Assembly (NCBI GenBank): GCA_903824785.1
Contig: CAIJYD010000091.1
Span: 1 to 64,000 of the forward strand
DNA: 64,000 nucleotides
Reading direction: 5' to 3'
Source of the DNA: an uncultured Bacteroidota bacterium
GTDB lineage: Bacteria; Bacteroidota; Bacteroidia; Bacteroidales; VadinHA17
The notes below the pieces were generated by a model. The model ran no database searches. It was not told the origin of the DNA and saw only the letters and a list, made by a program, of their open reading frames with translations. The position numbers and the translations under genes were made by a program. Shown one piece after another: positions 52,129-63,702 of the stretch (within the stretch, counting starts at the first letter, position 1; each line of letters starts with the position of its first letter).

Positions 52129-52293
52129 GCTCAAAGCCTCCCGGTACTTGGAAAAGACATGAAAAGGCTGAGGGCTCTCCTTAAAAATATTGAGGCGATA
52201 AGATTTTTGGGTGGCGAACCGTTGTTGCATCCGGAGACTGAAACAATAAATGAAACTGTTTCTACCCAATCCAACACGGGATTTAGGCAGTAA
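52129..52293 (+). pseudogene. radical SAM protein fragment
   Basis: In the frame containing the ATG at 52159 and ending at the TAA at 52291, the translation contains IEAIRFLGGEPLLHPE. This is the GGEPLLHP segment (SAM methionine contact) of radical SAM/SPASM proteins. The CxxxCxxC cluster motif that should lie upstream and the rest of the barrel downstream are missing. It is best read as a short remnant of a maturase-type gene. Confidence 0.7.
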
Positions 52294-52418: not shown

Positions 52419-52685
52419 TTATAAGTTGTGGTTTTTATAAATCTGTCCTCTTGGTAAAAATCTTTTTAATGTAACCGTTGTCCCATCATATTGTAAGGTA
52501 ATCCTGTAAAGGCCTCTTCTAATTCGATACATATCCTCTACTCCTTTTAGTTTAGAACAACCATGAATTTCACCTGGCACTTTGGCTGATTGAATCTCTT
52601 TTATTACTTCCAGTATAACCAACTTGTTTTTTTGGGGTAACGGTTCGGTATCTTTAACAAATGCTTTAGAAATTTCAAATTTCAT
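52419..52685 (-). CDS. RelE/ParE-superfamily toxin
   Basis: An 88-residue toxin. MKFEISKAFVKDTEPLPQK at the start, GCSKLKGVEDMYRIRRGLYRI and the C-terminal VTLKRFLPRGQIYK place it in the RelE superfamily. It is expected to cleave mRNA or to inhibit gyrase (ParE-like). The start overlaps the antitoxin stop by four bases. The pair lies between two HepT fragments and appears intact. Confidence 0.88.
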   Translation of the reverse strand: MKFEISKAFVKDTEPLPQKNKLVILEVIKEIQSAKVPGEIHGCSKLKGVEDMYRIRRGLYRITLQYDGTTVTLKRFLPRGQIYKNHNL

Positions 52686-52915
52686 ATTGATAAAGATTTT
52701 AAAAATTCAGTTTTTTCAGTTTGGTTTAAAATTTCATCTGTCCCGGGAGCTTTGGATAATGCAATTAACATTTCATCCTCATTTGCTAATTCTTCTAATA
52801 CACTTTCAATGTATGATTTTAAATTATGGCCATAGTTAACTGCTATTAATCTTAAATTCTTCTCTGTTTCAGGCCTCAGGTTAATAATTTTACGTTTTGT
52901 TTTTATTGGTTGCAT
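52682..52915 (-). CDS. antitoxin of the RelE/ParE-type pair
   Basis: A 77-residue protein with a basic N terminus and a ribbon-helix-helix-like segment (KRKIINLRPETEKNLRLIAV), then an acidic C-terminal tail (ELANEDEMLIALSKAPGTDE) suited to bind the toxin. A -7-like element on the minus strand (CAAATATA on plus, 52949-52956), among repeated ATATAC words, may be the autoregulated promoter. Confidence 0.85.
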   Translation of the reverse strand: MQPIKTKRKIINLRPETEKNLRLIAVNYGHNLKSYIESVLEELANEDEMLIALSKAPGTDEILNQTEKTEFLKSLSI

Positions 52916-55168: not shown

Positions 55169-55314
55169 GTAAATCCGGAGGGATTGACCACTGAAAGGCA
55201 GTTAAACTGAGAATTTCAACTTACATATAATTTCATGCATTCTCAGAGAACATGGCGGGTTTTGATGATCGGGCTTTCGCTCTTCTAATGAGGATCATCA
55301 TTTTGGATAATAGA

Positions 55315-55344
55315 TTGTTTTAGCACTCATTTTTACTAATTTTG
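55315..55344 (+). promoter_or_regulatory. promoter of kinase-sulfotransferase module 1
   Basis: TTG (55315-55317) and TAATTTTG (55337-55344) are 19 bases apart, an excellent Bacteroidetes sigma-factor match. The expected start site, about four bases after the -7 element, falls at the ATG (55349), so the mRNA would be leaderless or nearly so. Confidence 0.75.
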
Positions 55345-55348
55345 CTCA

Positions 55349-56248
55349 ATGTACAAATACACCGCTTTTGGCTTGCAAATAGCCTCCGAACCCGAACTGC
55401 CCGGTTTAATGCCCGGCACCGGAAACCCTGATGTAACTATCAGGTTCGGAGTGGTTCCTGTTAACCTCCCCGAACCGATTAAAGGGAAAGGAGTGGCATA
55501 CGAATTAAACGACAAAAGCTTTCTGTTAAAAGTTCCAGGTATTGCCCGTTTTCTGGTAACCATGGGGAATGAAATTACGATTGAGAGAGATCCAGGTTCA
55601 GATGATATAGACCTCAGTTTCTTTACCATCAATACCCCGATAGGCGCACTATTGTACCAACGAGGTTATTTACCCATGCATGCCAGTGCCATTGAAATAA
55701 ATGGTGGGTGTGTCATATTTACAGGGGTTTCCGGTGTGGGAAAATCAACCATCCTTGCCTCCTTTCATCAGCACGGATATCCTGTTCTTGCTGACGAAAT
55801 TTGCGCGATCTCCCTATCTGACACGGGTGTACCCTTTGTCAATCCGGGAGCGGCATACACCTATCTGTGGAGGGATGTACTTGACCATTTTAAAAAGGAT
55901 GCCAGTACATTAAAACACCGGCAAAATAACCCTGAAAAATACAAGGTTCCTATTGATGAAAGGTTTTACAGCATGCCATTGCCATTAAAGAGAATTTATG
56001 TACTCGCCACAAAAAACACACCTGGTATCGAGATAGAGGAAATTAAAGGAAAGGAGAAGTTCCTCCCGATTAAATTAAATTCCTACCGACAGCGGATCGG
56101 AACTGCCATAAGTAATCCGGCCGCCTCCTTTTTGATGCACGCAAGCATAGGCAAACATACTGTTGTAAAGCAGATTTCGAGACCACATGATATCATCAAT
56201 ATTGATCATTTGCGCGAGATGATCATCAATGACATGAATCCCGAATGA
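55349..56248 (+). CDS. HprK-like peptide serine kinase, copy 1
   Basis: A 299-residue kinase with the P-loop GVSGVGKST near residue 128, ADEICAIS as the Walker B-like segment, and a C-terminal HPr-kinase-type domain. In lasso-peptide clusters such as that of paeninodin, kinases of this type phosphorylate the C-terminal Ser of the precursor. Both precursor candidates here end in Ser. The N-terminal half (about 1-155) is almost identical to copy 2, whereas the C-terminal part has diverged. The gene overlaps the sulfotransferase by four bases. Confidence 0.85.
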   Translation: MYKYTAFGLQIASEPELPGLMPGTGNPDVTIRFGVVPVNLPEPIKGKGVAYELNDKSFLLKVPGIARFLVTMGNEITIERDPGSDDIDLSFFTINTPIGALLYQRGYLPMHASAIEINGGCVIFTGVSGVGKSTILASFHQHGYPVLADEICAISLSDTGVPFVNPGAAYTYLWRDVLDHFKKDASTLKHRQNNPEKYKVPIDERFYSMPLPLKRIYVLATKNTPGIEIEEIKGKEKFLPIKLNSYRQRIGTAISNPAASFLMHASIGKHTVVKQISRPHDIINIDHLREMIINDMNPE

Positions 56249-57108
56249 AAAAAATTATCTGGCTGGCATCCTATCCTAAATCTGGCAATACCTGGTTCAG
56301 GATTTTTCTATCCAACCTGTTCGATGACAAAGAAGATCCTGCCGATATAAATAAAATTACCAGCACACAAGGCATAGCAAGTGCCCGACATATATTCGAT
56401 GAGACTACAGGCATTGAGGCCTCCGACCTTTCACATGATGAGGTGGATATTTTGCGCCCTGGGTTATATAACAGTATTTCAGACGAAGCCAAAGAAACCC
56501 TTTTTATAAAGGTTCACGATGCCTATACTTTTTTGCCTGATAGAAGTCCGCTGTTCCCTGCTTCAGCAACCAAAGGCATTATTTACATTATCCGTAACCC
56601 GCTGGACGTGGCAGTCTCCAATTCCAATCATAACAGATGTACTGTGCAAAAGAGCATTGAAAGGATGGGGGATGGAAGTTATGGTTTATGTGGAAAAAAC
56701 AAACGGCTGAAAGATCAGCTCCGGCAGAAAATAGGATCCTGGAGCGATCATGTGATGAGCTGGACCAATGCTCCCGATCAAAAGATTCATATCATCCGTT
56801 ACGAAGACATGAAACAAGCGCCGGCTGAATCTTTTACAGCAGCAATTCAATTTGCAGGGTTGCATTTTGACCCTGAGGCAGTTGAGGCAGCTATCAAAAA
56901 TAGCAGTTTCGAGGAGATGCAAAAGCAGGAAAAGGAGAAAGGGTTTAAAGAGAGACCGTCCGGAGCACTATCCTTTTTTCGCAAAGGAGAAGCAGGCTCC
57001 TGGCGTGAGCAGTTGACCCCGGAGCAGGTGAAGCAAATTTTACATGACCATGGCCGGGTGATGCAGTCATATGGTTATTTAACGCCTGAAGGCGAAATAG
57101 TTTATTAA
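56245..57108 (+). CDS. PAPS-dependent sulfotransferase, copy 1
   Basis: A 287-residue sulfotransferase. The PAPS 5'-phosphosulfate loop is ASYPKSGNTWFRIFLSNL near the N terminus, the 3'-phosphate-binding segment is YIIRNPLDVAVSNSNHN, and RKGEAGSWREQLTPEQ is the C-terminal PAPS motif. It probably transfers sulfate to a hydroxyl of the RiPP product; a Tyr in an acidic context is present in one precursor. It is co-transcribed with the kinase, and the B1 gene follows 32 bases later. Confidence 0.9.
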   Translation: MKKIIWLASYPKSGNTWFRIFLSNLFDDKEDPADINKITSTQGIASARHIFDETTGIEASDLSHDEVDILRPGLYNSISDEAKETLFIKVHDAYTFLPDRSPLFPASATKGIIYIIRNPLDVAVSNSNHNRCTVQKSIERMGDGSYGLCGKNKRLKDQLRQKIGSWSDHVMSWTNAPDQKIHIIRYEDMKQAPAESFTAAIQFAGLHFDPEAVEAAIKNSSFEEMQKQEKEKGFKERPSGALSFFRKGEAGSWREQLTPEQVKQILHDHGRVMQSYGYLTPEGEIVY

Positions 57109-57140
57109 CAGAATCATTAACAGTTAAATAGAACCGAAAT

Positions 57141-57440
57141 ATGAAAGCAGAAAGTAAGGTGACTTTAAAATCGGCTATCTCCAGGAACCCGGAGATCATT
57201 CACAGTGTCATGGACGACGAAATTGTGATGATGAGTGTGGATCAGGGGCTGTTTTTTGGGATAGATAAAATCGGCACTCATATCTGGAACCTGCTGGAAA
57301 CCCCGATAATAGTTGAAGAGCTGATTGAAAAACTGGTGGCTCACTACACCGTTGAAAGGGAAGTTTGCGAAATTGACACATTGCTTTTTCTCAACGATAT
57401 GTTGCTGAAAAAGGTCATTATGGTCGAAGAGGCACATTAA
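57141..57440 (+). CDS. PqqD-like RiPP recognition protein (B1), copy 1
   Basis: A 99-residue single-domain PqqD family protein. DEIVMMSVDQGLFFGIDKIG and IWNLLETPIIVEELIEKL, then FLNDMLLKKVIMV, follow the family pattern. In lasso and other RiPP systems this RRE domain binds the leader peptide and hands it to the B2 protease. It is the third gene of the kinase-sulfotransferase operon. Confidence 0.9.
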   Translation: MKAESKVTLKSAISRNPEIIHSVMDDEIVMMSVDQGLFFGIDKIGTHIWNLLETPIIVEELIEKLVAHYTVEREVCEIDTLLFLNDMLLKKVIMVEEAH

Positions 57441-57746
57441 TTATAAATGAAACGAAACATTGTACGGCTTTATGAGCAAAATACAAGCAATGAACATATT
57501 GGATGGCATTTTAAACATTGTAGCAGGTCATCTAATTCGTCGGATGTCTGGATTTTAGGTGAAACAACCGTTCAAGCTTTTCAAACCGCATATTCCCGTT
57601 TAAAGAATGTTAAGGATTACAATATAGATATCCACTTACAGCATATTTATATGTCCGGACAAGTGAATGTTTGAAGGTTATTGCAATAGGGTTAACCAAA
57701 TTATCAGAGATTAGGCTAATCGTTTTACTGGTAATTTCCCAATAAC
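57441..57746. other. intergenic region with one short unassigned frame
   Basis: A stretch between the B1 gene and the first precursor gene, which is on the opposite strand. Apart from the short ORF at 57447-57674 I see no further gene. A strong hairpin terminator is not evident. Confidence 0.35.
57447..57674 (+). pseudogene. short unassigned ORF after the B1 gene, perhaps a remnant
   Basis: A 75-codon frame begins seven bases after the B1 stop. It contains LYEQNTSNEHIGWHF and SSDVWILGETTVQAFQT. Shifting frame near 57640 would extend it by about 35 codons (YLYVRTSECLKVIAIGL) to a stop near 57760. The position fits a cyclase or peptidase gene in a lasso operon, but no motif of either is present. 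Unknown and possibly decayed. Confidence 0.35.
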
Positions 57747-57896
57747 TCAGGAGGTATATAAAGTATCCGGATCTCCTAAAATAAATAAACTTTCCACTTC
57801 TTCCGTCCCTAAAATAACAATGCCAGGGCAAATCCACATAGTTTTTAATTCCGAATTAATCCCGTTTTTATTGTCCTGTTGTTCTGTATTATTCAT
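57747..57896 (-). CDS. RiPP precursor peptide candidate A1
   Basis: A 49-residue peptide from the ATG at 57896; a longer frame to 57932 is less likely. The leader ends in WICPGIVILGTEEVES, which fits the lasso leader pattern [YW]xxPx[IL]xxLG(T). The C-terminal part is LFILGDPDTLYTS, with Asp residues that could close a ring and a terminal Ser. It shares length and leader motif with the second candidate, 105 bases upstream on the same strand. The cleavage site is not certain, and the core has no Gly in a suitable first position. Confidence 0.65.
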   Translation of the reverse strand: MNNTEQQDNKNGINSELKTMWICPGIVILGTEEVESLFILGDPDTLYTS

Positions 57897-58000
57897 AAAT
57901 ATTTTATTTAATTGTGTAAAATAGATGCACATTCATTAGCAAAAACAGATAAGATAATTTTATATTCAACGATACTGCGAGAGACTTGTTCCTCCATCCC

Positions 58001-58150
58001 TCAACTGGCATTTTTTGCATCGTCATAAGGATCTACCAATCCATATCCCTGGGCACTGTCATCTGTTAACTCCACCAATTCAGGCCGCACCCATTTAATA
58101 ACTTCTTGTTCCTGATTCACATCTTCCGAATTTGTTTGCTTGCTAGTCAT
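58001..58150 (-). CDS. RiPP precursor peptide candidate A2
   Basis: A 49-residue peptide from the ATG at 58150; the frame extends to 58225 but without leader-like sequence. The leader has WVRPELVELTDD, a close lasso-type [YW]xxPxLxxL motif. A likely core is GYGLVDPYDDAKNAS, with Gly first, Asp at position 9 (and 6 or 10) for a macrolactam, Tyr in an acidic DPYDD context and a terminal Ser. It lies upstream of A1 on the same strand, between the B1 and B2 genes on the other strand. Confidence 0.7.
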   Translation of the reverse strand: MTSKQTNSEDVNQEQEVIKWVRPELVELTDDSAQGYGLVDPYDDAKNAS

Positions 58151-58596
58151 AATTATCAATTTTTCGTGAAAAATACTTATACGAATCAATTTGGTAATGT
58201 AGTAATTTTTCTGAATAAAGGCCAAAACTTTTGCATTTTCTTTAAATTTAATATGATATCATTCCTATGCTCTTTATTATAATTACAGTAAATATAGCCA
58301 GAACACAATTGCTAGTAAGAGCTATTGAAATTGAAGTATTGCTATAACCATCATTAAGATCTATAACGTTACTTTTTTGACACTGGGAGTATTTCCCGGG
58401 AATCAAGATACTATATCCTGCCCTCGGGCAACTTGTGCAGAGAAGATGTTTTTTGTTCTCTATATTTGCCACTGAGACGAAAGAGACCTGGTAATGCACC
58501 GCAAATATGTTCATTGTATACACTATTTGAACTGTTTGCAGTTAGGGTCGAATTTCCATTATCTTTAGCAGAAATTGAAAAACTCAAGAACAGAGA
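58151..58596. other. divergent regulatory region between precursor and B2 genes
   Basis: About 450 bp with no convincing gene. A minus-strand frame at 58248-58523 has a hydrophobic end but no recognised features. On the plus strand, TTTG (58535-58538) and TATCTTTA (58560-58567), 21 bases apart, may be the B2 promoter. I see no exact -7 match for the precursor operon. Confidence 0.4.
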
Positions 58597-59034
58597 ATGC
58601 CTTCATTTTATTCAAAAATAAGAAAAGTAAGCGGGAGGGATTGGTGGCTTTTCTTTCGTGCCATATACTGGACCGGAATAGCCCGGATATTAATTGTTTT
58701 TGTTCCGTTAAAAAGGTTTTCATTCCTGTTGGGAACTCACATGAAGGTGACACCTGAATCGGATGTCTCTGAAAACATGGTATTGCTAAGAGCTGTTGGG
58801 GTTGCCGTAATCAGGGCAAGTCGTTTTGTGCCCTGGCGGTGCAAATGTTATGAACAGGCCATTGCAGCCAAAATGATCCTTCGTGGATACGGTCTTCAAA
58901 CCACCCTGTATTACGGAGTAGCAAAAGACCATGATAAAAAATTGATTGCCCACGCCTGGGTTCGATGTGGGAATTATATTGTTACTGGACGACCAGGGAT
59001 GGAACGGTTTACCATTGTTGGTACTTTTGCCTGA
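58597..59034 (+). CDS. lasso-type leader peptidase B2, copy 1
   Basis: A 145-residue transglutaminase-like cysteine protease of the lasso B2 family. A hydrophobic N-terminal segment (WWLFFRAIYWTGIARILI) is followed by the catalytic Cys in RCKCYEQAIAAKMILRG, LYYGVAK, and the catalytic His in AHAWVRCGNY. B2 cuts the leader, guided by B1. It is transcribed separately from B1. The kinase-sulfotransferase copy 2 follows 257 bases downstream with its own promoter. Confidence 0.88.
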   Translation: MPSFYSKIRKVSGRDWWLFFRAIYWTGIARILIVFVPLKRFSFLLGTHMKVTPESDVSENMVLLRAVGVAVIRASRFVPWRCKCYEQAIAAKMILRGYGLQTTLYYGVAKDHDKKLIAHAWVRCGNYIVTGRPGMERFTIVGTFA

Positions 59035-59257
59035 TTCATTTTCTATAAACATGCAAATCTGCAGGATCATAAAAACCACGATTAATTAGTTCTGGAATAA
59101 ATATGAGGCATATTGGTGTAGCAAAGATGCCGATCCGATTGTCCAGAATATTCCATGCAAAAAAAAGGATTTTATTCCGAAGGGAGGTCAAAATTCTTTA
59201 TCTTTTACGAAACAAACAACAGACATTACAAAGAAGCGATACCATTTGAATAATTGA

Positions 59258-59287
59258 TTGTTTTAGCACTCATTTTTACTAATTTTG
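59258..59287 (+). promoter_or_regulatory. promoter of kinase-sulfotransferase module 2
   Basis: TTG (59258-59260) and TAATTTTG (59280-59287) are 19 bases apart, as in copy 1. The predicted start site coincides with the ATG at 59292. Confidence 0.75.
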
Positions 59288-59291
59288 CTCA

Positions 59292-60191
59292 ATGTACAAA
59301 TACACCGCTTTTGGTTTGCAAATAGCCTCCGAACCCGAACTCCCAGGTTTGATGCCAGGAACAGGAAACCCTGATGTAATTATCAGGTTCGGAGTGGTCC
59401 CTGTTAACCTCCCCGAACCGATTAAAGGGAGAGGAGTGGCATACGAATTAAACGACAACAGCTTTCTGTTAAAAGTTCCAGGTATTGCCCGTTTTTTGGT
59501 AACCATGGGGAATGAAATTACGATTGAAAGAGATTCCGGATCAGATGATATAGACCTCAGCTTGTTTACCATTAATACCCCGATAGGCGCACTATTGTAT
59601 CAGCGAGGTTATTTCCCGATGCATGCCAGCGCCATTGAAATAAATGGCGGTTGTGCTATTTTTACAGGTGTTTCAGGAGTTGGAAAATCAACCATCCTGG
59701 CCTCCCTTCATCAGCAGGGCTACCATGTGGTCGCAGACGAAATCTGCGCCATTTCACTTTCAGGTAACGGCGAGCCTCATGTGCATCCGGGAGCGGCATA
59801 TACCTGGCTGTGGCGCGATGTGCTGGACCATTTCGGAACGGACACTGCAACGTTGACACATCGCCATAATAATCCGGAAAAGTACAAGTTACCTATTGAC
59901 GCGCGGTTTTTCAACACTAATCTGCCCTTAAAAAGAGTCTATATCCTCGATACCAAGAATACTCCTGGAATAGAAATGGTGGAGATTAAGGGTTCTGAAA
60001 AGTTAAAACAGATCATTCCCAATGCATACCGTTACCGTATCGGCAATACCATACACAATCCGATGGTCTTCTTTAACCTGAGTGCGAGTATCAGTAAATA
60101 TCCCATTGTCAGGAAGATTACCCGCCCTCCTGGTAATCAAAATATTGATTTATTACGGGAGTATATCATCAACGACCTGGAGAGCGAATGA
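59292..60191 (+). CDS. HprK-like peptide serine kinase, copy 2
   Basis: A 299-residue paralogue of the kinase at 55349. The P-loop GVSGVGKST and VADEICAIS are conserved. The first 155 residues differ from copy 1 at only about a dozen positions, but the C-terminal half differs much more (SGNGEPHVHPGAAYTWLWRD and later). The pattern suggests a common ATP-binding part and changed substrate recognition, perhaps one kinase for each precursor. It overlaps the sulfotransferase by four bases. Confidence 0.85.
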   Translation: MYKYTAFGLQIASEPELPGLMPGTGNPDVIIRFGVVPVNLPEPIKGRGVAYELNDNSFLLKVPGIARFLVTMGNEITIERDSGSDDIDLSLFTINTPIGALLYQRGYFPMHASAIEINGGCAIFTGVSGVGKSTILASLHQQGYHVVADEICAISLSGNGEPHVHPGAAYTWLWRDVLDHFGTDTATLTHRHNNPEKYKLPIDARFFNTNLPLKRVYILDTKNTPGIEMVEIKGSEKLKQIIPNAYRYRIGNTIHNPMVFFNLSASISKYPIVRKITRPPGNQNIDLLREYIINDLESE

Positions 60192-61051
60192 GAAATATCA
60201 TCTGGCTGGCATCCTATCCTAAATCGGGCAATACCTGGTTAAGGATTTTTTTATCTAACCTGCTTGATGACAAAGAAGATCCTGCCGATATAAATAATAT
60301 TACCAGCACACAAGGCATCGCCAGTGCCCGCCATATCTTCGATGAGATTACAGGTATTGAGTCTTCTGATCTGTCACACGAAGAGGTCGATATGTTGCGA
60401 TCCGGATTGTATGACATCATTTCAGAAGAAGCCAAAGATACCCTTTTTATAAAGGTTCATGATGCCTATACTTTTTTGCCGGATAAAAGCCCGCTTTTCC
60501 CTGCTTCAGCCACCAAAGGCATTATATACATTATACGTAACCCACTGGATGTAGCAGTCTCTTATTCCAATCACAACAGCTGCACGGTTCAGCATAGTAT
60601 TGAATTTATGAATGATGGGAGTTATGGATGGGGTACCCGGAACAATAGGCTTAAGGAGCAGCTCCGACAGAAAACAGGAACCTGGAGCAATCATGTGATG
60701 AGTTGGGCCAATGCTCCTCAACAAAAGGTTCATATCATCCGCTACGAAGACATGAAACAAGCACCGGTTGAATCTTTTACGGCAGCAATTCAGTTTGCAG
60801 GGTTGCATTTTGACCCGAAGTCAGTGGAGGCAGCGATCAAAAAGAGCAGCTTCGAAGAGATGCAAAAGCAGGAAAAGGAGAAAGGTTTTAAAGAGAGACC
60901 GATAGGCTCAGCCTCTTTTTTCCGTAAAGGTGAAGCAGGCTCCTGGCGGGAGCAGTTGACCCCGGAACAGGTGAAGCAAATCATAAATGACCATGGTCGG
61001 GTGATGCAGGCGTATGGTTATTTAACTCCAGAAGGCGAGATAGTGTATTGA
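60188..61051 (+). CDS. PAPS-dependent sulfotransferase, copy 2
   Basis: A 287-residue paralogue of the enzyme at 56245, with ASYPKSGNTWLRIFLSNL, YIIRNPLDVAVSYSNHN and RKGEAGSWREQLTPEQ conserved. Differences from copy 1 are scattered, with a cluster in the middle (SIEFMNDGSYGWGTRNNRLK). Same inferred role: sulfation of the peptide product. No B1 gene follows this copy. Confidence 0.9.
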   Translation: MRNIIWLASYPKSGNTWLRIFLSNLLDDKEDPADINNITSTQGIASARHIFDEITGIESSDLSHEEVDMLRSGLYDIISEEAKDTLFIKVHDAYTFLPDKSPLFPASATKGIIYIIRNPLDVAVSYSNHNSCTVQHSIEFMNDGSYGWGTRNNRLKEQLRQKTGTWSNHVMSWANAPQQKVHIIRYEDMKQAPVESFTAAIQFAGLHFDPKSVEAAIKKSSFEEMQKQEKEKGFKERPIGSASFFRKGEAGSWREQLTPEQVKQIINDHGRVMQAYGYLTPEGEIVY

Positions 61052-61210
61052 AATAATTATCATAATACAAATCACAACAAATAAATTGTATTATTCCTTC
61101 GGATGTAATTGTAAGACACAGTTTGTTTTCCTAATAAAATCAAGTAGGTTTCCTGACCACCTTGTGTTATTCAAAACTGTAGAACGGTCTCTCTTCTAAT
61201 TCGCTTCAGA

Positions 61211-62509
61211 TCATATTTCAGGTGGTAATTGAGTAAATAAATTTGCCGGATAGTTCTTTTGATATTTCCGGCGAAGGATCTTCTGAAATTTATCCAGATT
61301 CCTTGAATACTGTTTTGTGTTCAGAATTGACTGTATGCGTGTGGCTATAATATCTGATGAGTCCTCAAAAGAGGCCTTTTCACCCAATCCATGAAAGACA
61401 ATTCTGGCAGCATGTCCGTTATAATCGTAATTTGAGGCAGGTGGGAAAACCAGCATGGGTATTTTCAAAAACATGGCTTCATATACCGAACTCCCGCCGT
61501 GGGTTATAAAGAGGTGTGCTTTTTTCATGAATGCAAGCTGAGGACAAAAAGGGAAAATGAATACATTCAGCGACAGAGGCTTTACAATATTAATTAATCT
61601 ACTAGGGATGGAAATGAAGAAAAACCAATCCGGATGCCCGGCGCCAATAGTAATCAGGTTGTTGTAGAAATTGAGTAAAACTTCCTGGCTTAACATTTGT
61701 TCTATCACAGTTCCCATGGAAACATAAATACAAACACTCGATTCAGTTCGTTTCGCTAATTTAAGAAATAGTTCATGCAATGGTTCCAGGTTAACTTGTG
61801 TATTCAGGTTAAGCATCGGACCGACATATCTTTCCCAGGGTTTTAGTTCTTGTTTTTTAAAATCAAATTCTTCCGGAATCAGGTACCATTTTGATATGTT
61901 TGAAAAGGAAGGATGTATTGCATTGTAATTCCAGATAGCGTATTTATCAGGAAGCTTTTGCATGGAGAAGAGTAATTCGATCACTGCCTTTTTTCTTGAT
62001 TGTGACAGATTCTCTTCCTTAATTCCATCAGGGAAGGATCTTTTTTTCCACAACTCCGCAACATGTTCTCCCGGGAATTCAAATTGATTATGAGGCGGAA
62101 TCGTCTGGTTTGGGAAGGATGGAATAAATGTTGATAAGACAATTATATTCAATGTATTGAAGTGTTTTTTTAAGTGCAGAATATCAGTAGAACAAAACTC
62201 GTCAATAAAAACATATTCCGGCTTATATTTTTCTAGAAGCTGTCGTAACTCCCTTCCTCTTTGTTTGAATTGGGCTTTAATTTCATCCACTTCTATCTCG
62301 CTTCCTTTCCTCTTTTTACTAAGGATTGTGGAAAGTGAAAAAGTATTTAATGGCAGAATATTAAATTCTGCAATAAGATGACTCTGAATACCCTTGGGGT
62401 TGATACAATAGTGAACATCATAGCCATTTCGCCGGAAATATTTGGCTAACAGTAGAGATTTTACCAGATGACTCGTTAAAGGAGGATAAATAAAGAGGAC
62501 ATTTTTCAT
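61211..62509 (-). CDS. GT1-type glycosyltransferase
   Basis: A 432-residue protein of the UDP-glycosyltransferase/MGT group with GT-B fold. The N-terminal domain begins MKNVLFIYPPLTSHLVKSLL and the C-terminal donor-binding domain has VCIYVSMGTVIEQML and LFITHGGSSVYEAMFLKIPML. Members glycosylate small molecules or natural products. Its location between two sets of RiPP genes makes a tailoring role possible. Same strand as the second B2 gene, which is upstream. Confidence 0.85.
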   Translation of the reverse strand: MKNVLFIYPPLTSHLVKSLLLAKYFRRNGYDVHYCINPKGIQSHLIAEFNILPLNTFSLSTILSKKRKGSEIEVDEIKAQFKQRGRELRQLLEKYKPEYVFIDEFCSTDILHLKKHFNTLNIIVLSTFIPSFPNQTIPPHNQFEFPGEHVAELWKKRSFPDGIKEENLSQSRKKAVIELLFSMQKLPDKYAIWNYNAIHPSFSNISKWYLIPEEFDFKKQELKPWERYVGPMLNLNTQVNLEPLHELFLKLAKRTESSVCIYVSMGTVIEQMLSQEVLLNFYNNLITIGAGHPDWFFFISIPSRLINIVKPLSLNVFIFPFCPQLAFMKKAHLFITHGGSSVYEAMFLKIPMLVFPPASNYDYNGHAARIVFHGLGEKASFEDSSDIIATRIQSILNTKQYSRNLDKFQKILRRKYQKNYPANLFTQLPPEI

Positions 62510-62698
62510 TGAAAGTTTATTCTATTGTAAAGGTATAATTTGAATGTTAAGTAAACTCTTTAGAGCTGACCTTATCACATTTGGTAATATTAATAATTTC
62601 TAATTAGAGTCGAATGCCCGAAAAGTCAGAAATAAGATTAGAGCAAACACCTGTCTCTCAAGGAATGTTATAGCTGATGATAATAATACTCGATCCAG

Positions 62699-62779
62699 TT
62701 AATTAATGGGAATATTCCACAGCGGTACTGTTAATTGCTTCGAAAAAAGATTATGTCCATCCTTCGTTAATTTGTTCAT
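62699..62779 (-). other. 26-codon ORF overlapping the B2 stop
   Basis: An ATG at 62779 overlaps the TGA of the B2 gene (ATGA) and opens a 26-codon frame with LTVPLWNIPIN at its end. The overlap would allow coupled translation. One frameshift would extend it with WIEYYYHQL. It may be a small peptide or the start of a decayed gene. Confidence 0.25.
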
Positions 62780-63234
62780 GTCCTTTCTTTAGGTGATGAA
62801 ATGATCCGGTACTCCTCGACATTGCACCTGCCGCAAACAAAGTAGTTCCCAACTGTGACCCACGAATGGCCGACAGTTTCTTCAACAGATTTTTTCATAC
62901 CAATATAGAGGTTGAAAGGGATCTGATAATATTGCAGTAACACGGCTGCCTGCCATGATTGTTGCCGGCAGCTGTTTTGCCATGGGATATATCTTGCGGC
63001 AAGTGAAATAGCAAAGTTGATATCTCTGGCGATCGATAATTGTACAGAATTCGGGGTGCCTGAAGCATCAAGATTGCTAAAAGACCATTTTGTATTTTTA
63101 ATGAAAAACTTCATTTTAGCTGCTGTGTAGTGGTAAAAGGCAAGAATTAAAACGAAACAAAAGAATTTTTTTCTTCTGAATGGGATTCTGGAGAATGAAA
63201 TGACATTTTGGAAATTTTTTTGCAAAGAAACCAT
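62776..63234 (-). CDS. lasso-type leader peptidase B2, copy 2
   Basis: A 152-residue B2-like protease from the ATG at 63234; the open frame runs to 63414 but the extra 60 residues do not look like B2. The catalytic Cys is in NSCRQQSWQAAVLLQYY, then FNLYIGM, and the catalytic His is in VGHSWVTVGNYFVCG. It is only distantly similar to copy 1, so it is probably not a recent duplicate. A -7-like CAAAGTTA (63319-63326, minus-strand TAACTTTG) lies upstream. Confidence 0.82.
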   Translation of the reverse strand: MVSLQKNFQNVISFSRIPFRRKKFFCFVLILAFYHYTAAKMKFFIKNTKWSFSNLDASGTPNSVQLSIARDINFAISLAARYIPWQNSCRQQSWQAAVLLQYYQIPFNLYIGMKKSVEETVGHSWVTVGNYFVCGRCNVEEYRIISSPKERT

Positions 63235-63429
63235 GAAATGTTTATGTTTGATGCGGTTTTGCTTGAAGTCCTTGTGCGATGGAATAAATGACCAGTTCAA
63301 GCATTTACATTCAAAGTCCAAAGTTAACAATCCTTCAGACAATGAAAAACACAGCAAATCAAACCTTAGCATTATCTTGAAGTTATTTTTTTTCCTGTAA
63401 AACAGAAACCACATTAATTATTTGCCAAA

Positions 63430-63702
63430 ATGAAAGAAGAGCACTATAAAGTAAATACAGAGAGGATCCTTTTTACTAATCTGGATGATGAGGGAGTGAT
63501 CTTTGATATAGAAAAAAACACCTATTTCAATCTTAATCCGACATTTTGCCTCATTTTTTCGCTGCTAACCGAAGGCCGATCTGTCGAAGAGGTTAAAACC
63601 CAGCTTATGGTTGATTATAATGTTAATGAAGAGATCTGCGAATCCTCGCTTACAGAAAGCATTCAGACTTTAATACAGAAAGGTTTTATATCCCCTGTCT
63701 GA
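63430..63702 (+). CDS. PqqD-like RiPP recognition protein (B1), copy 2
   Basis: A 90-residue PqqD family protein (DDEGVIFDIEKNTYFNLNPT, LIFSLLTEGRSVEEVKTQL and IQTLIQKGFISPV). It is divergent from the second B2 gene across about 195 bp. The pair probably belongs to a second RiPP gene set that may continue to the right of the window. It differs clearly in sequence from the first B1. Confidence 0.88.
   Translation: MKEEHYKVNTERILFTNLDDEGVIFDIEKNTYFNLNPTFCLIFSLLTEGRSVEEVKTQLMVDYNVNEEICESSLTESIQTLIQKGFISPV

Follow-up and report, generated by a model that had tools for sequence, protein, structure and literature searches.

A lasso-type peptide locus with two kinase–sulfotransferase gene pairs and an apparently composite build in an uncultured Bacteroidales bacterium

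Can bacteria place both phosphate and sulfate on a lasso peptide? The question is raised by a locus of an uncultured Bacteroidota bacterium of the order Bacteroidales (genome 4.69 Mb, 97.8% complete), which was studied in the window formed by the first 64000 bases of contig CAIJYD010000091.1 (here C91, 75829 bases). A preliminary description of the window had recognised, between positions 55349 and 63702, a lasso-type locus of ribosomally synthesised and post-translationally modified peptide (RiPP) genes with two leader-binding B1 proteins, two B2 leader peptidases, two HprK-like kinases (K1 and K2), two sulfotransferases (ST1 and ST2), a GT1-type glycosyltransferase and two 49-residue precursor candidates. 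All of these genes were recovered at their positions. In the reading favoured here, with a probability of about two in three, they belong to a composite lasso cluster of approximately 15 kb that runs from K1 (55349) to an ATP-binding cassette (ABC) exporter ending at C91 70335 and would turn two or three precursors into lasso peptides that carry phosphate and probably sulfate.

Ten open reading frames (ORFs) of 55349–63702 were scanned against Pfam and NCBIfam. In the profile searches that had been proposed as a check, both B1 proteins scored above the PqqD cut-off, both B2 proteins above the lasso B2 cut-off, and both sulfotransferases above the cut-off of PF00685 (Table 1). The best NCBIfam model for both B1 proteins was lasso_PqqD_Bac (NF033536), with 77 bits for B1a and 47.6 bits for B1b, both under its cut-off of 80. 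B2a carries Cys84 and His119, which are invariant across 18 aligned B2 sequences. A lasso-type cyclase is encoded just past the window end, which rules out a cluster without a cyclase and supports the assignment as a RiPP locus of lasso type that includes kinase and sulfotransferase genes. Among NCBIfam models the cyclase fits that of the lasso cyclases best (NF033535), at a score under the model cut-off of 525, and the cyclase of comparison locus L041 is likewise under it (372 bits; L-numbers denote fetched comparison loci, whose ORF starts were set mechanically, so that gaps between genes are approximate). In three other lasso loci (L166, L171 and L225), relatives of the CxxCxxCC protein (PF03692) encoded after the cyclase lie between the B1 and the cyclase gene.

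The sulfotransferases have the features of the PAPS (3'-phosphoadenosine 5'-phosphosulfate)-dependent family PF00685. The motifs SYPKSGNTW, KxHD and RNP, which we take to be the PAPS-binding and catalytic motifs, are invariant over 20 aligned sulfotransferase rows, and RNPLD is also conserved. When the sulfotransferase profile was compared with solved structures, the top-scoring chains were TEG12 and TEG14, with StaL scoring lower; all three enzymes act on nonribosomal glycopeptides (glycopeptide antibiotics). The genome holds one adenosine 5'-phosphosulfate (APS) kinase gene, so PAPS supply is plausible. ST1 and ST2 are the only PF00685 matches in the whole genome, none being found outside the cluster at the 97.8% completeness given above.

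In the kinase profile check both kinases match Hpr_kinase_C at scores below the cut-off of 33.3 and over just 46 residues. The best PDB matches of a kinase profile are HprK/P chains, followed by phosphoenolpyruvate carboxykinase (PEPCK), across the P-loop region. Moreover, the 50 listed PDB fold matches of an AlphaFold2 model of K2 (predicted local distance difference score 94, predicted template modelling score 0.91) are PEPCK entries and one HprK/P chain, with TM-scores (query length) of approximately 0.5–0.6, one of 0.34, and root mean square deviations of 5.6 or more. The predicted fold thus backs the superfamily, and the whole kinase chain fits HprK/PEPCK at moderate TM-scores. According to the available text of PMC9266682, lasso kinases have a catalytic His-Lys-Asp-Asp motif, and relatives in print act on the C-terminal Ser of the peptide, which they phosphorylate. 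Mapping of this motif onto the alignment shows that His111, Lys132 and Asp149 are kept in both K1 and K2, and that Asp150 is replaced by Glu in both. As this departs from the His-Lys-Asp-Asp motif of the phosphorylated (paeninodin-type) lasso class, the locus was not filed as paeninodin-type, though it would work like it. Elsewhere, two clusters have two kinases flanking a sulfotransferase (L067:8552-9448 and L068:8506-9426), and the first kinase of L067, which lacks both His111 and Asp150, looks from its sequence like a pseudokinase.

The two 49-residue precursor candidates, A1 and A2, are joined by a third, A3, just past the window end. Lasso precursors typically combine a leader bearing Y/W-x-x-P and Thr(-2) with a core that has Asp or Glu at positions 7–9. 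All three candidates contain W-x-x-P, and all three end in Ser, as do precursors of the phosphorylated (paeninodin-type) lasso class. With a 13-residue spacing the residue at position -2 is Ala in A1, Val in A2 and Gly in A3, and for A3 an alternative core start is possible (GGKTLLSTEDFAYHLS, Val(-2)). The predicted cores place ring acids at Asp9 in A1, Asp7 and Asp9 in A2, and Asp7 in A3 if its Trp is at -15. The motif W..P.[LIV] at 20–36 residues before a C-terminal Ser occurs in three ORFs of the 16-kb cluster and nowhere in the remaining 60 kb of C91, and 300 Markov sequences gave a mean of 0.03 and a maximum of 1, in a chance test that is partly circular because the motif was chosen after the candidates were known.

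Taken together, these genes suggest a pathway. B1 would hold the leader through the W-x-x-P motif, the HprK-like kinase would phosphorylate the still linear precursor at a serine of the core, most probably its C-terminal residue, and the sulfotransferase would transfer a sulfo group to a hydroxyl, with PAPS as donor. B2 would then remove the leader, the cyclase would close the ring, the NTP_transf_5 protein (a family to which PsmN of pseudomycoidin presumably belongs) and perhaps GT1 too would add a sugar, and the ABC transporter would export the product. We infer this order of steps, as well as sulfation itself, its acceptor and the pairing of each precursor with a B1/B2 set.

In the neighbourhood survey that the preliminary description had proposed, kinase and sulfotransferase genes were found paired across the order and in Pseudomonadota. 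A kinase search of 295 genomes of the order gave a match in 39, the source genome included. A sulfotransferase was counted by eye in the same cluster in 22 of the 30 stretches fetched around the best other kinase matches, and 15 of these 22 also hold a cyclase; some of the other seven end at contig ends. Public genomes contributed kinase relatives from at least 58 further loci, in Pseudomonadota, Bacillota, Bacteroidales (L073, one named Bacteroidales genome) and others, at least 15 of them with the pair, including Pseudomonas, Novosphingobium, Erythrobacter and Methylomonas. For 93 kinases above 100 bits, a sulfotransferase lay within 1.5 kb in 43, not in 48, and two stretches were cut; since these kinases came from kinase- and B2-anchored searches, 43/93 is no estimate for all lasso clusters. 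All 43 paired sulfotransferases are on the strand of the kinase, and 38 overlap it or start no more than 160 bp downstream (37 at 120 bp). The 43 paired kinases represent 40 loci and 41 distinct sulfotransferases, as in L067 and L068 two kinases share one. Four plasmid records carry relatives of the sulfotransferase; kinase relatives were also sought in viral contigs, where none was confirmed. In genome G147 (L044/L162) a kinase, a B1 and a sulfotransferase lie on a 151-kb contig and the only B2 found lies on another, of 193 kb, which is perhaps a split lasso pathway.

A search anchored on B2 gave matches in 37 of the 295 genomes, 35 of them above the family cut-off. By hand tally, 21 of the 37 have kinase and sulfotransferase in the same stretch, three have the pair on another contig, 11 have a kinase only (four on another contig) and two are without a kinase. 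In a phylum-wide sample B2 was found in 36 of 395 genomes; 32 regions were fetched from 30 of them, four genomes not being fetched, and hold a kinase in 24 and a sulfotransferase in one (L216, with a kinase beside it), as judged with a profile built from the sulfotransferase family of this locus only. Across the lasso B2 loci surveyed, a sulfotransferase is accompanied by a kinase in 25 and stands without one in none (Fisher P 0.007, with genomes and regions mixed and kinship ignored). These counts bear on the possibility that the kinases and sulfotransferases serve a glycan or lipid pathway and stand beside the lasso genes by chance. In its favour, the substrates of many bacterial sulfotransferases are not peptides, and the GT1 gene lies between the modules. 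Against it, same-strand linkage of kinase and sulfotransferase beside B1/B2 recurs in many families, and a sulfotransferase without a kinase was seen in 0 of 25; this possibility is regarded as very improbable.

The two genes have also diversified together. Mapped onto the kinase tree, the sulfotransferase label can be explained by 11 changes, where shuffled labels require 31 on average; well-supported branches force four of the 11. The tree is a quick one with long branches, in which 29 of 90 branches are open. Distances between kinases correlate with those between sulfotransferases (Mantel r 0.70, 45 pairs, 0 of 5000 permutations), four of these pairs, in L067 and L068, sharing two sulfotransferases. 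The clustering of the label and the distance correlation therefore suggest that the pair has mostly been passed on whole, with gain or loss occurring repeatedly.

What is the likely substrate of such pairs? The precursors recognisable by motif beside kinase–sulfotransferase pairs number 26 from 25 loci, after loci without one were dropped and a non-canonical candidate in L216 was excluded; their cores were placed by Thr(-2), which is therefore present by construction, 13 residues after the motif Trp/Tyr in 19 and 14 after it in seven. None could be identified in several loci in which precursors were sought (e.g. L044, L048, L051 and L233). The clusters of L041 and L042 are canonical, each with a clear precursor and a single cyclase. 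Asp or Glu is found at core positions 7–9 in 22 of the 26, and 21 end in Ser, so these peptides look like lasso precursors. Tyr is present in 16 cores and absent from 10, and tyrosine was accordingly rejected as a universal sulfate acceptor.

No core lacks both Tyr and a C-terminal Ser. One arrangement would have kinase and sulfotransferase act in sequence on the C-terminal Ser, with the phosphate or its hexose being sulfated to give a phospho-sulfo or phospho-sugar-sulfate tail. This would suit the 10 cores without Tyr, the lack of any sulfotransferase without a kinase, and two cores (L080b and L076, the latter less sure as it has no ring acid) in which the C-terminal Ser is the sole Ser, Thr or Tyr after position 9. 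Five of the 26 cores do not end in Ser, and such a tail is considered improbable.

The preliminary description had the kinase–sulfotransferase pair present twice, and this is the case. Comparison of the contig with itself from 54001 shows that the main duplication spans kinase and sulfotransferase only (Table 1), and a second relates B2a to a degraded B2 copy in two pieces (81% and 77%). K1 and K2 differ by dN 0.15 and dS 0.86 (non-synonymous and synonymous changes per site; ratio approximately 0.17, NG86 method), ST1 and ST2 by dN 0.08 and dS 0.61 (ratio approximately 0.13), and the low dN relative to dS shows that both copies have been kept under constraint. The kinases form a mosaic, residues 1–160 being 92% identical (dS 0.48) and residues 161–299 only 61% (dS 2.4), as if the first part had undergone gene conversion or the second had been exchanged. 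The further claim that the maturation genes are duplicated does not hold if it means one copied set. B1a and B1b are 22% identical and B2a and B2b 23%, so they are not recent duplicates, and their nearest relatives differ; duplication of a single maturation set was rejected on these grounds. Among the paired genes, kinase and sulfotransferase alone are, by sequence comparison, a recent duplication.

Where, then, did the parts of the locus come from? Window proteins were compared with all ORFs of L041–L128, L159–L173 and L203–L234, the five best matches per query being kept. K1, K2, ST1 and ST2 are nearest to loci having a kinase–sulfotransferase pair. The five best relatives of B1a are in L159, L044, L067, L042 and L062, four of these in genomes with the pair and L062 without a sulfotransferase. 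For NTP_transf_5 and the exporter the closest relatives lie in L069, L165 and L205, and two of these three loci carry the pair. B1b is nearest to L232 (43%), as is B2b (40%), for which L233 is also among the nearest relatives; in both of these loci a kinase is present and no sulfotransferase occurs within the 14.5 kb fetched. A3, by eye, resembles the L232 precursor (W.KPEI..F.V..GKT). No relative of GT1 was found among the same loci at E 0.001. Because the kinases and sulfotransferases on one side and B1b, B2b and the cyclase on the other have different nearest relatives, the locus looks like a composite of at least two lasso clusters, with the former from one lasso lineage and the latter from another without a sulfotransferase. 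The kinase tree goes against a tidy division into two modules, as does B2a, which is nearest to a B2 in L160 (43%) that has no lasso neighbours in its stretch.

The same split of relatives could mean two products, with kinase, sulfotransferase, B1a and B2a making a linear phospho- or sulfo-peptide from A1 and A2 without the cyclase, and B1b, B2b and the cyclase making a separate lasso peptide from A3. The likeness of A3 to the L232 precursor agrees with this, as does a RiPP family, described in the available text of PMC13381572, that combines a RiPP recognition element (RRE), an HprK-like kinase and an NTP transferase and has lasso enzymes in only about one-third of its loci. However, a cyclase is present in 15 of the 22 kinase–sulfotransferase stretches, a ring acid lies at 7–9 in 22 of the 26 precursors beside pairs, and both A1 and A2 have Asp at predicted core position 9; two separate products are regarded as unlikely.

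Several points weigh against a functional, phosphorylating and sulfating composite cluster. No product is known for it. The cyclase is 44–48% identical to those of L233 and L232 and only 28% to cyclases that accompany pairs. By path length on the kinase tree, the window kinases have their nearest neighbour in L071, a row without a sulfotransferase (1.95–2.04 changes per column; the paired L085, L042 and L044 are next at 2.0–2.3), and no well-supported group joins the window kinases to paired kinases. In two alignments 42 of 43 other kinases have Asp150, the sole exception being the first kinase of L067, whereas both window kinases have Glu. All three precursor candidates lack Thr(-2), the start of the A3 core is not clear, and the cyclase is followed by a B2 pseudogene.

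The Glu150 of both kinases and the missing Thr(-2) make altered or decaying function a live rival: the locus could be what is left after duplications and fusions, with the finished product no longer made. The stop and frameshift in the B2 copy, and the fact that A1 and A2 are not encoded on the same strand as B1a and B2a, would also suit decay. In contrast, the remaining main genes are open, the dN/dS ratios of the duplicated kinase and sulfotransferase are not expected from decay since the duplication, and the available text of PMC10368454 reports Ile(-2) as proven in one lasso precursor and Ile, Val or Ala(-2) as predicted in others. Decay is, on balance, rather unlikely, and the composite, active cluster remains the preferred reading.

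How does this cluster compare with characterised systems? It shares with the paeninodin-type lasso clusters (PadeK, ThcoK and SyanK) the kinase family, precursors with a C-terminal Ser and the B1, B2 and C enzymes, and differs from them in its kinase-paired sulfotransferases, its two kinases, Glu as fourth motif residue, the absence of Thr(-2) and the composite make-up of its maturation enzymes. Sulfatyrotides, the tyrosine-sulfated RiPPs, are not known to be lasso peptides. They would share with the present cluster sulfation, which is named as a RiPP modification in PMC9484694 (available text), although tyrosine is not the universal acceptor beside the present pairs. In the phosphoglycosylated lasso peptide pseudomycoidin, a nucleotidyltransferase gene stands beside kinase and lasso genes, as here (PMC8498205 and PMC9266682), and the hexoses depend on the nucleotidyltransferase (PMC8498205); the available parts of these papers describe no sulfotransferase step, unlike the arrangement in the window. 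The Bradymonas Bsf cluster makes a kinase-tailored lasso peptide whose precursor has a penultimate leader residue other than Thr (Ile(-2)) and in which BsfK acts on Ser3; no sulfotransferase is mentioned in the available text (PMC10368454), and the window precursors have Ala, Val or Gly at the aligned position. The lpp RiPPs of Bacillota resemble the window in their discrete RRE, HprK-like kinase and NTP transferase, but according to the available text of PMC13381572 the leader is removed by a signal-peptidase-like SpI protein, where the window has a lasso B2.

Such genes have also been noted in other lasso clusters. According to the accessible part of PMC8498205, some lasso clusters of Firmicutes begin with a putative sulfotransferase gene, and that of PMC4289311 mentions an HPr kinase and a sulfotransferase in some lasso clusters of anaerobes; these clusters are known by gene presence, without a product, and are likened to the window by description. 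A literature search, in so far as texts were available, found no report of a sulfated lasso peptide or of characterised lasso sulfation. No word beginning with 'sulf' occurs in the available main text of a review of unusual lasso modifications (PMC9266682), none beginning with 'sulfo' in that of a rumen lasso survey (PMC7533575), and 'sulfotransferase' is absent from that of a study of RiPP mining in Bacteroidales (PMC10352776). The preliminary description had called the arrangement one not known as characterised. The arrangement is not unique, uniqueness being rejected by its recurrence at 43 of 93 kinases, and its genes have been remarked on in print. What is unusual in this locus is its composite build, three precursor candidates, two maturation sets, altered kinase motif and lack of Thr(-2).

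If the preferred reading is correct, lasso peptides bearing phosphate and sulfate would be a widespread unseen group, since 24 of the 37 genomes of the order in which a lasso B2 was matched carry the pair. Expression of this small pair should be easy, so that whether and where bacteria sulfate lasso peptides becomes directly testable. Moreover, the locus combines a single cyclase with two B1/B2 sets and three precursor candidates, which makes it a ready-made case for testing how pathways are kept separate by their B1 proteins.

Table 1. Features of the locus in the window and in the adjoining part of contig C91 (positions marked C91 lie past the window end)
Feature	Position	Strand	Evidence and remarks
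K1, HprK-like peptide kinase, 299 aa	55349-56248	+	Hpr_kinase_C 21.6 bits; fold of homologous K2
ST1, PAPS-type sulfotransferase, 287 aa	56245-57108	+	PF00685 121.8 bits, cut-off 22; 4-bp overlap with K1 end
B1a, PqqD-like leader-binding protein	57141-57440	+	PqqD (PF05402) 48.3 bits, cut-off 23.4
A2, precursor candidate, 49 aa	57747-57896	-	W(-15), V(-2), predicted core SLFILGDPDTLYTS, C-terminal Ser
A1, precursor candidate, 49 aa	58001-58150	-	W(-15), A(-2), predicted core GYGLVDPYDDAKNAS, C-terminal Ser
B2a, lasso leader peptidase, 145 aa	58597-59034	+	NF033537 (lasso_biosyn_B2) 101.5 bits, cut-off 33
K2, second HprK-like kinase	59292-60191	+	Pfam profile (Hpr_kinase_C 24.1 bits), AlphaFold2 fold, homology to K1
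ST2, second sulfotransferase	60188-61051	+	PF00685 120.2 bits, cut-off 22; 4-bp overlap with K2 end; 85% identical to ST1
GT1-type glycosyltransferase	61211-62509	-	UDPGT 31.3 bits, cut-off 19.5; cluster membership uncertain
B2b, second lasso leader peptidase	62776-63414	-	NF033537 46.9 bits, cut-off 33; true start probably near 63234
B1b, second PqqD-like protein	63430-63702	+	PqqD (PF05402) 43.7 bits, cut-off 23.4
A3, third precursor candidate, 36 aa	C91:64002-64112		predicted core TLLSTEDFAYHLS, C-terminal Ser
Lasso-type cyclase	C91:64740-66647		PF00733 80 bits, cut-off 21; NF033535 227 bits
Degraded B2 copy	C91 from 66651		stop and frameshift; after cyclase
CxxCxxCC protein	C91:67014-67538		PF03692
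NTP_transf_5	C91:67550-68629
ABC exporter	C91:68614-70335
Kinase–sulfotransferase duplication, copy 1	55301-57116	+	copy 2 at 59245-61060, 82% DNA identity

Neighbouring genes include those for DUF4249 and Fib_succ_major proteins, families linked to Bacteroidota; together with the named Bacteroidales genome among the kinase relatives (L073), they agree with a Bacteroidota source. Some smaller frames in and around the locus were also noted. An ORF of 75 aa (57447-57674) begins six bases after the end of B1a and has no Pfam or NCBIfam match at E 0.001. Upstream of the cluster, a 44-aa frame (52159-52293), without a Pfam match, contains FLGGEPLLHPE, reminiscent of a fragment of a radical SAM (S-adenosylmethionine) enzyme, and two adjoining short frames on the minus strand (52419-52915, 88 and 77 aa), also without a Pfam match, appear toxin–antitoxin-like by eye.

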